In this document: positions 18,164 through 23,956 of the stretch, one piece after another
How the letters are laid out: each line of letters opens with the position of its first letter
Numbering within the stretch: position 1 is the stretch's first letter
DNA from: Pseudorhodobacter sp. E13
GTDB lineage: Bacteria > Pseudomonadota > Alphaproteobacteria > Rhodobacterales > Rhodobacteraceae
NCBI RefSeq assembly: GCF_003991405.1
Contig: NZ_RPEN01000153.1
Span: forward strand, 62,001 to 126,000
Reading direction: 5' to 3'
DNA length: 64,000 nucleotides
Position numbers and translations under genes: made by a program
The notes under the pieces: model-generated
The model's input: the letters and a program-made list of their open reading frames with translations, nothing else
Databases searched by the model: none
Told to the model about the DNA's origin: nothing

Positions 18164-18595
18164 ATGAGCGACGCCGCGATGATGAAGCTGTATTCCGGGC
18201 GCATTCTGGAACTGGCCGCCGATATTCCGCATCTGGGCCGCCTGCCCGCGCCGCAAGCGACCGTGCGCAAGCGCTCGCCGCTATGTGGGTCTGTGGTGAC
18301 GGTGGATCTGGTGATGACGGATGGCCGGGTCACGCAATTCGCGCAGGATGTGAAGGCCTGCGCCTTGGGTCAGGCGGCGGCGGCGGTTGTGGGAGGTGCT
18401 GTGATCGGGCGCAGCAGCGCCGAACTGCTGGCCGCGCGCGATGCGCTGCGCGCCATGCTGGCCGAGGGCGGGCCCGTGCCGCCTGCCCCTTTCGATGGTT
18501 TTGCCGTGCTGGAACCTGCACGGGAGTTTAAGAACCGCCACGCCTCTATCCTGCTGGCAATCGACGCCGCTGCCGAGGCCGCCGCCCAAGCATAA
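18164..18595 (+). CDS. Iron-sulphur cluster assembly scaffold (IscU/NifU-N-like)
   Basis: 143 residues of the NifU N-terminal / IscU-like family, which build or carry Fe-S clusters. Two of the three usual cluster cysteines are seen: SPLCGSVVTVDLVM and VKACALGQAAAAVV. The third block reads NRHASILLAIDAA, with Ala where IscU has Cys after the His. The alphaproteobacterial members I know of share this pattern, so it may be a specialised scaffold rather than a damaged one. A ggagagaaaagcc region precedes the ATG. No suf or isc genes are adjacent. Confidence 0.82.
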   Translation: MSDAAMMKLYSGRILELAADIPHLGRLPAPQATVRKRSPLCGSVVTVDLVMTDGRVTQFAQDVKACALGQAAAAVVGGAVIGRSSAELLAARDALRAMLAEGGPVPPAPFDGFAVLEPAREFKNRHASILLAIDAAAEAAAQA

Positions 18596-18630
18596 AAAAA
18601 CCGCCGCGCATCCGAAAGGGATGGCGGCGG
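18594..18630 (-). terminator. Rho-independent terminator of the 40-residue membrane protein gene
   Basis: The stem CCGCCGC (18601-18607) pairs with GCGGCGG (18624-18630), extended by CATCC/GGATG round a gaaag loop. On the minus strand it is followed by seven T residues (18594-18600 complement). It would end a short transcript of roughly 300 bases from the gene at 18746-18868. It may also stop the convergent scaffold gene, though there is no T-run on that strand. Confidence 0.7.
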
Positions 18631-18745
18631 CAAGGAAGCGTGTCTGACGGGCGCGACAAACGGGGTGGGACAACCCCGGCGGATGAACGCATGGCACAGG
18701 TTGGGACAGGTGCGCGCGCCCGGGCGTTCAGAACGCAGGCAGTGA

Positions 18746-18868
18746 TCAGAACAAGGCAGGCAAGGACAGGCCCATAACCAGAACAGCAAACAACGACACG
18801 ACACCGATCATATCTTCGAACAGGGTCTTGGACGAACGGGCGGCGACGGCTTTGATATCTGCGATCAT
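18746..18868 (-). CDS. 40-residue single-helix membrane protein, probably LexA-regulated
   Basis: A small gene below usual annotation size: MIADIKAVAARSSKTLFEDM, then a hydrophobic helix IGVVSLFAVLVMGLSLPALF to the end. The ribosome-binding site aaggaggttccc is nearly ideal. A longer open frame upstream (to 18949) would run through the control region and is not the real start. The gene has its own control region with a GAAC-N7-GAAC box and its own terminator, so it is a monocistronic unit downstream of recG. The N-terminus is amphipathic and charged, the C-terminus a membrane anchor. SOS-induced small inner-membrane proteins such as Caulobacter SidA inhibit division, which is an analogy of size and control only. 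Confidence 0.75.
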   Translation of the reverse strand: MIADIKAVAARSSKTLFEDMIGVVSLFAVLVMGLSLPALF

Positions 18869-18922
18869 GGGAACCTCCTTGCTTGTTGCTATATTGTTCT
18901 CACTTTCTTTACGCCTTGTAAA

Positions 18923-18937
18923 GAACTTTTTGAGAAC
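18923..18937 (-). promoter_or_regulatory. LexA (SOS) box upstream of the 40-residue protein
   Basis: GAAC-N7-GAAC on the plus strand (GTTC-N7-GTTC toward the gene) is exactly the alphaproteobacterial LexA site. A third GAAC at 18944-18947 lies 6 bases further and an inverted GTTC is at 18896-18899. The box is 55-69 bases before the ATG, next to a -35-like tttaca, where a repressor would block transcription. Confidence 0.7.
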
Positions 18938-18955
18938 ATTTGAGAACAAAAGCGG

Positions 18956-23208
<4,253 letters not shown>

Positions 23209-23242
23209 TTAGGACGCTGTCGCAGCAAGGTCCAGTCGGCAG

Positions 23243-23956
23243 TCAGGCACCGATGGCAAAACGTGTCTCGCCCTCCCCCGGGCCCGGGTCGCGCAGAACA
23301 TAGCCGCGGCCCCAAACGGTTTCGATATGGTTCACACCACCTGTCGCTTCGGCCAGCTTTTTGCGCAGCTTGCAGATGAACACGTCGATGATCTTCAACT
23401 CCGGCTCATCCATGCCGCCGTAAAGGTGGTTAAGGAACATTTCCTTGGTCAGCGTGGTGCCTTTCCGCAGGCTGAGCAATTCCAGCATCTGATATTCCTT
23501 GCCGGTCAGATGCACCGATTTGCCTTCCACATCCACCGTCTTGGCATCAAGGTTCACCGATACCTTGCCGGTTTTGATCACCGATTGCGAATGACCCTTG
23601 GACCGCCGGATGATCGCGTGAATCCGGGCGACCAGTTCTTCGCGGTGGAACGGTTTGGTCATGTAATCATCCGCGCCAAAGCCAAAGCCCTTGAGCTTGC
23701 TTTCGGTATCATCGGCGCCCGACAAGATCAGGATCGGCGTGTCAATCCGCGCCAGCCGCAATTGCCGCAACACGTCATGCCCGCTCATATCCGGCAGGTT
23801 GATATCCAACAAAATCAGGTCGTAATCATAGAGTTTGGCAAGGTCGATCCCCTCCTCCCCCAGATCGGTGCAAAACACATTCAGGTTTGCATGGGTCAAC
23901 ATCAGTTCAATACTGCGTGATGTTGTGGGGTCATCTTCAACCAACAGGATTCGCAT
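23243..23956 (-). CDS. ctrA: Cell cycle response regulator CtrA
   Basis: 237 residues of the OmpR/PhoB class. The receiver starts [20 protein letters not shown] with the phospho-acceptor Asp in [18 protein letters not shown] and ends [20 protein letters not shown]; the winged-helix DNA-binding domain includes [20 protein letters not shown] and [20 protein letters not shown], diagnostic for CtrA. In Caulobacter it blocks replication initiation and drives division and flagellar genes; in Rhodobacteraceae it is usually non-essential and controls motility, gene-transfer agent and related functions. Phosphorelay partners are not in the window. sciP lies just upstream on the same strand. Confidence 0.96.

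Follow-up and report, generated by a model that had tools for sequence, protein, structure and literature searches.

Gene content and conservation of the locus

In the window, by which we mean the whole stretch of 64,000 nucleotides analysed here, a small ORF of 40 aa (MIADIKAVAARSSKTLFEDMIGVVSLFAVLVMGLSLPALF; 18746-18868, minus strand, stop codon included) lies directly downstream of recG (18956-21067, minus strand). In this window ctrA, ligA, recG and the small gene are co-directional within 5.2 kb (18746-23956, minus strand), with ctrA about 4.4 kb upstream of the small gene and in the same direction, and the convergent gene on the other side encodes a SufU/NifU-like scaffold protein (18164-18595, plus strand; 46 bits against an NCBIfam cut-off of 92.5 bits), its stop codon abutting the RNA terminator described below. 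All of the 97 distinct loci examined have the small gene directly behind recG and on the same strand, and the distance from the recG end to the small-gene start codon is roughly 80-250 bp in most of them.

A profile built from 30 homologues identified the small protein in 262 of 299 sampled Rhodobacteraceae genera, nearly always as a single copy per genome, and a search with the single sequence matched 111 of 199 sampled genera of the family. When the same profile was run against 385 genomes across the Alphaproteobacteria, no convincing matches were obtained outside the Rhodobacteraceae; six non-family matches were weak (E above 0.002) and mostly located within long ORFs. Likewise, neither a box nor a small membrane ORF was found in the tested stretch downstream of recG in 28 other alphaproteobacterial families. 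Inspection of 17 recG loci from profile-negative genomes revealed that 13 of them have LexA-type boxes and an ORF of 34-45 residues with a single hydrophobic helix in the corresponding position, indicating that the locus is more widespread than the profile indicates. Named carriers, identified by a peptide scan using an alignment of a closer homologue subset since the full family alignment was too variable, include Ruegeria, Phaeobacter, Leisingera, Sulfitobacter, Tritonibacter, Thalassovita, Rhodovulum, and Frigidibacter.

Identity by codon position across the homologues was 0.55/0.70/0.39 and the median dN/dS between closer homologue pairs was approximately 0.13, from which we infer that the ORF is translated and selected. 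As judged from these comparisons and its single-copy homologues, the small ORF is a real gene. In one homologue (L081 in genome G162) an early TGA shortens the protein to 36 aa, the tail still being conserved in frame. Profile searches of Pfam, NCBIfam, PHROGs, and PDB with the small protein gave no family match, only isolated weak ones (E 0.04-0.05), and the SulA domain PF03846 was not among the Pfam results. An origin from a mobile element was dismissed, as there was no phage match and a single plasmid match, which was on a 1.58 Mb Pseudorhodobacter replicon; the homologue of Pseudorhodobacter turbinis (L240, NZ_CP039965.1) is on a replicon of this size deposited as a plasmid. We found no description of the small gene or its RNA in the open-access literature searched. 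The original prediction of an independent unit that encodes a single transmembrane helix and represents an undescribed SOS effector of the Rhodobacterales is supported by comparative genomics.

Promoter and LexA operators

A putative sigma-70-like promoter precedes the small gene (18893-18922, minus strand), consisting of a -35 element TTTACA (18922-18917), an 18-nt spacer and a -10 element AACAAT (18898-18893), and it is followed by a Shine-Dalgarno sequence AAGGAGG (18880-18874, minus strand) in front of the ATG at 18868, in line with the near-ideal ribosome-binding site predicted originally. Putative LexA operator 1 (GTTCTCAAAAAGTTC; 18923-18937, minus strand) abuts the -35 element, while putative operator 2 (GTTGCTATATTGTTC; 18885-18899, plus strand) lies over the -10 element and is inverted, the orientation also seen at lexA and recA. 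A third GTTC half-site (18944-18947, minus strand) extends operator 1 to GTTC-N6-GTTC-N7-GTTC. The GAAC-N7-GAAC box with a third GAAC reported before was thus exact (18923-18926, 18934-18937, and 18944-18947 on the plus strand). The conserved element as then described is correct in the part covered but larger than stated, comprising three GTTC repeats (N6, N7), a second operator over the -10 element and a structured 3′ UTR.

Judged by pattern alone, GTTC-N7-GTTC occurs at chance level in the window (1.39 expected in 64 kb, one observed; 81 in the genome), so the single-sequence argument for the box is weak and the case rests on comparison. In the whole genome (G000) the motif occurs less often than its reversed control (81 vs 183). 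Upstream of the small gene, GTTC-N7-GTTC was present in 96 of 97 homologous loci, the original prediction being open to refutation had homologues lacked it, and in 77 of 80 further named loci; the third half-site was found in 83/97 and 70/80 loci, and the operator 2 pattern GAAC-N7-[CG]AAC in 92/97. When aligned, the promoters show the same fixed layout, GTTCnCAAATGTTCtyAAAAAGTTCTT(T/G)ACA-N11-aTATGAGAACAAAgnnGCAACA; in 96 loci, TT(T/G)AC and GAGAACAAA are conserved with a constant spacing.

The same motif precedes lexA in 25 of 25 and recA in 24 of 25 genomes checked. We trained a LexA matrix only on the lexA and recA promoter boxes of these 25 genomes, leaving out the genome under study, and the two small-gene promoter sites scored 17.0 and 13.6, ranking first and second among approximately 128,000 window positions on both strands; the lexA and recA sites of the same genome scored 18.8 and 25.0. 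All 97 small-gene promoters scored above the 99th percentile of random windows. The promoter also parallels those of lexA and recA, the latter having a similar layout (GTTCTC ... GAGAACAA), and matching intergenic boxes in the same genome precede imuB and uvrD (genes identified by visual inspection of their N-termini). With the box in 96/97 loci and the two top matrix ranks, the LexA control proposed earlier is very probable on these sequence grounds, and since the predicted operators overlap the promoter, LexA bound there would block it.

The base before the second half-site, however, is A in the N7 operator of the small gene (97%) versus T in the lexA and recA boxes (92%), suggesting that the affinity may be lower or that another factor may share the site. 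A regulator other than LexA, unconnected to the SOS response, could in principle bind the GTTC repeats, and the N6/N7 triple repeat with its A-tract is indeed unlike the lexA and recA boxes. We consider this very unlikely, given that the two sites have the top LexA matrix scores in the window and that, in the corresponding position, the diverged recG loci have GAAC-N7-GAAC boxes and mostly the canonical T (TGTTC). Two diverged loci (L213 and L222) have a recA-box-like GAAC-N7-GAAC (GAACTTGTGGTGAAC) in place of GAAC-N7-CAAC. A role of the box in serving recG was also ruled out, as recG is followed, not preceded, by the sites at every locus; LexA regulation of recG was predicted in some alphaproteobacteria in a 2012 survey (PMC3323433), with a site that differs from the present one.

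Predicted membrane protein

The AlphaFold2 model of the small protein (pLDDT 87) contains two helices at residues 2-11 and 13-39, read here as an amphipathic helix at the N-terminus followed by a single transmembrane helix, and the product is thus predicted to be a small single-pass inner-membrane protein. Residues D19 and G22 are invariant in the 97 homologues, and R11, T15, L34, L36, and P37 are nearly so. The mean net charge before D19 is +1, which predicts an N-in topology, and no D, E, K, or R follows D19 in any of the 97 homologues. Conservation along the helix recurs with a period of exactly 100 degrees (p 0.006), corresponding to one conserved face. A single conserved face without charge after D19 fits better with a specific helix-helix contact than with a charged pore.

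These features bear on whether the protein could be a membrane toxin. TisB of E. coli is an SOS-controlled small membrane peptide belonging to a type I toxin system with RNA-level features. A peptide of this kind would depolarise the inner membrane and slow growth, with its translation limited by an antisense RNA or by the folded 3′ RNA, and the size, the single helix, and the LexA operators of the present gene agree with it. In contrast to TisB, the present protein has no charged transmembrane face and is encoded at a single conserved chromosomal locus; a charge-bearing amphipathic transmembrane helix, the trait of TisB and type I toxins, was absent from the 97 homologues, where the uncharged helix with its one conserved face argues for a specific partner rather than a charge-lined pore. 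Moreover, the gene is single copy, fixed in location, and near-universal in the family, whereas type I toxins are patchy. A toxin is therefore an unlikely identity for this protein.

Structured RNA in the 3′ UTR

The segment 3′ of the stop codon spans approximately 150-190 nt across loci and ends in a strong intrinsic terminator. In the window it forms a conserved structured RNA (18594-18742, minus strand), which was missed by the original prediction, in which an outer stem P1 is combined with hairpins bearing loops of the CUGUCCC/CUGCC type, the terminator being part of the element (18594-18631, minus strand). The terminator is made up of a GC-rich stem (18631-18600) and a T-run to 18594, approximately 115 bp beyond the stop codon, confirming that the gene has a terminator of its own. 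The predicted transcript is roughly 290 nt, about half of which is the structured RNA.

A first MAFFT alignment recovered only the terminator, and the rest of the structure emerged from folding each sequence separately, from cross-pairing, and with a covariance model. Single-sequence folds concur on an outer stem around three hairpins, with a mean MFE z of -2.5 for the element. In an alignment-free test, the arms of the outer stem paired better within the same genome than across genomes (-27.1 vs -18.2 kcal/mol; 62/68, p 1e-11), and two of the three hairpins were likewise positive, the middle one being marginal (p 0.03). Covariation was observed as double changes in 44 of 46 pairs (718 cells; 0/500 shuffles) in an alignment fitted to the structure; unlike this count, the pairing test is independent of the structure-fitted alignment. 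CTGTCC/CTGCC motifs are repeated (3.2 per sequence vs 0.55 in shuffles), and the conserved loop motifs are mostly unpaired in the folds (0.66-0.70 vs 0.43 overall).

The covariance model, built from eight genomes other than that of the window, matched the window at 43.2 bits as well as most other loci, including 65/65 named loci, and found the element only once in this genome. A search with the model gave no convincing matches in other families; two weak matches outside the family (G231 and G249; 77 and 111 nt) are probably terminator matches. No Rfam family reached its gathering score, the best being 20.7 bits against a cut-off of 42, with DUF1874 and others far below, and the main text of two papers on candidate RNA motifs (PMC2864571, PMC8632094) contains no recG-linked Rhodobacterales motif. 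The attached RNA would be a new RNA family. UdsC of Rhodobacter sphaeroides is a 3′-UTR-derived sRNA of 67 nt that is RpoHII-dependent (PMC9779115, PMC8625941); it was ruled out as a known name of the RNA (PMC9779115). Both consist of the mRNA of a small hypothetical protein with a 3′-UTR RNA ending in a terminator, but the present element is 150-190 nt, multi-branched, and located downstream of LexA sites.

In all likelihood both the protein and the RNA are functional products. One could go further and regard the RNA as the main product, namely an SOS-induced trans-acting sRNA with the peptide secondary, as the covariation is strong and extends to 65/65 named loci, the loop motifs are largely exposed, and the RNA is also found at several loci with a diverged protein (L224, L211, L226, and L210). 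Such a primacy of the RNA is nevertheless improbable, since the ORF itself is under purifying selection (dN/dS ~0.13) with invariant D19 and G22, and even action of the RNA in trans, considered separately, seems somewhat doubtful. For a type I toxin, an elaborate RNA structure on the same transcript would be a point in favour, but it is located in cis on the same strand, and by eye no Shine-Dalgarno complement was seen in the exposed loops.

Possible function of the locus

The best reading of these sequence data is that the gene and its RNA constitute an undescribed LexA-repressed SOS effector locus of the Rhodobacteraceae, which gives rise to a structured RNA and a membrane protein. This locus probably represents the missing DNA-damage response effector of the family and perhaps a brake on cell division. 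SOS-controlled small membrane proteins are known; the new feature here is that one occurs family-wide next to recG and is joined to an RNA that covaries.

Upon DNA damage, RecA bound to ssDNA triggers the self-cleavage of LexA. At the present locus, LexA would repress the small-gene promoter until this RecA-driven cleavage frees it, after which the short transcript would be made and the peptide would enter the inner membrane with its N-terminus inside. The conserved helix face (D19, G22, L26, A/G33, and P37) may then dock on one particular protein of the membrane, the likeliest being a late component of the divisome (FtsW, FtsI, or FtsN), so that septation would wait for repair, as with SidA in Caulobacter. 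The RNA tail probably influences its own mRNA or what becomes of it, for instance through stability or a slow shut-off after repair; alternatively, it may be released as a 3′-UTR sRNA that presents its CUGUCCC/CUGCC loops to targets. We give even chances to this scheme as a whole, that is, an SOS effector locus peculiar to the Rhodobacteraceae, repressed by LexA, with both a membrane protein and a structured RNA, in which the protein brakes division via a membrane partner.

A division brake is suggested by analogy only. Caulobacter SidA is a LexA-controlled SOS division inhibitor of 29 aa, located in the inner membrane and acting on FtsW (PMC4211646, PMC12700426), and B. subtilis YneA and S. 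aureus SosA are SOS-induced division inhibitors with a single transmembrane helix, the former also acting on FtsW (PMC13396833; PMC6851548). In Caulobacter, loss of sidA is reported to rescue the filamentation of a lexA mutant (PMC12700426). SidA and the present protein are both tiny alphaproteobacterial single-pass inner-membrane proteins (here by prediction) with LexA sites, but the latter has 40 aa, is tied to recG, occurs family-wide, and has a structured 3′ RNA, and its profile gave no convincing match outside the family in 385 alphaproteobacterial genomes. No sequence relation to YneA or SosA was found, and the present protein has no domain beyond the transmembrane helix. SOS division inhibitors are unrelated between groups, and none was found described for the Rhodobacteraceae (Rhodobacter, Ruegeria, Phaeobacter, Sulfitobacter, and others) in the literature searched, the small gene being a near-universal and unnamed candidate effector for the family. 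SulA was not detected in 26 genomes, with E. coli as a positive control. Since SOS inhibitors elsewhere are unrelated single-pass proteins that act on FtsW, FtsI, or FtsN, and since SulA is missing here, a division brake would be the likeliest role, and a division inhibitor resembling SidA in action falls just short of an even bet. The sequence features favour no divisome target over any other membrane target, and none of the known division inhibitors is reported to have a structured 3′ UTR, which leaves room for a different role.

One such role would be the regulation of another membrane protein, such as a protease, a transporter, or one of the CtrA-relay kinases (CckA/DivL), by which DNA damage would be coupled to cell-cycle or envelope control. 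The conserved helix face would serve this function as well, ctrA lies upstream in the same direction, and LexA of R. capsulatus was reported, as cited in PMC6473078, to act on the CckA-CtrA relay. The linkage to ctrA, however, is known from this window alone, and we regard such a regulator as rather unlikely. Returning to the preferred effector locus, its message may also be a dual-function SOS transcript of approximately 290 nt, combining a micro-protein that blocks division or the cell cycle with a multi-branched RNA acting in trans via its CUGUCCC/CUGCC loops. We hold this to be a fairly long shot; the combination, present across nearly all Rhodobacteraceae, was not found described for any SOS response. 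In any case, the locus raises the question of why the message of an SOS micro-protein retains a covarying RNA of matching size.

A further small ORF was observed in the genome outside the window (positions 804-1007 of L188; near 26123 of contig C153). It encodes 58 aa with a C-terminal transmembrane helix (MQDSPSTGAAMRFPILPSQSDIDAQLRRAKPRNFDTRPLPWLPALVGLTLVMVMQTLL) and lies 30 bp behind an intergenic GTTC-N7-GTTC (GTTCCTGTTAAGTTC), making a second SOS membrane peptide possible.
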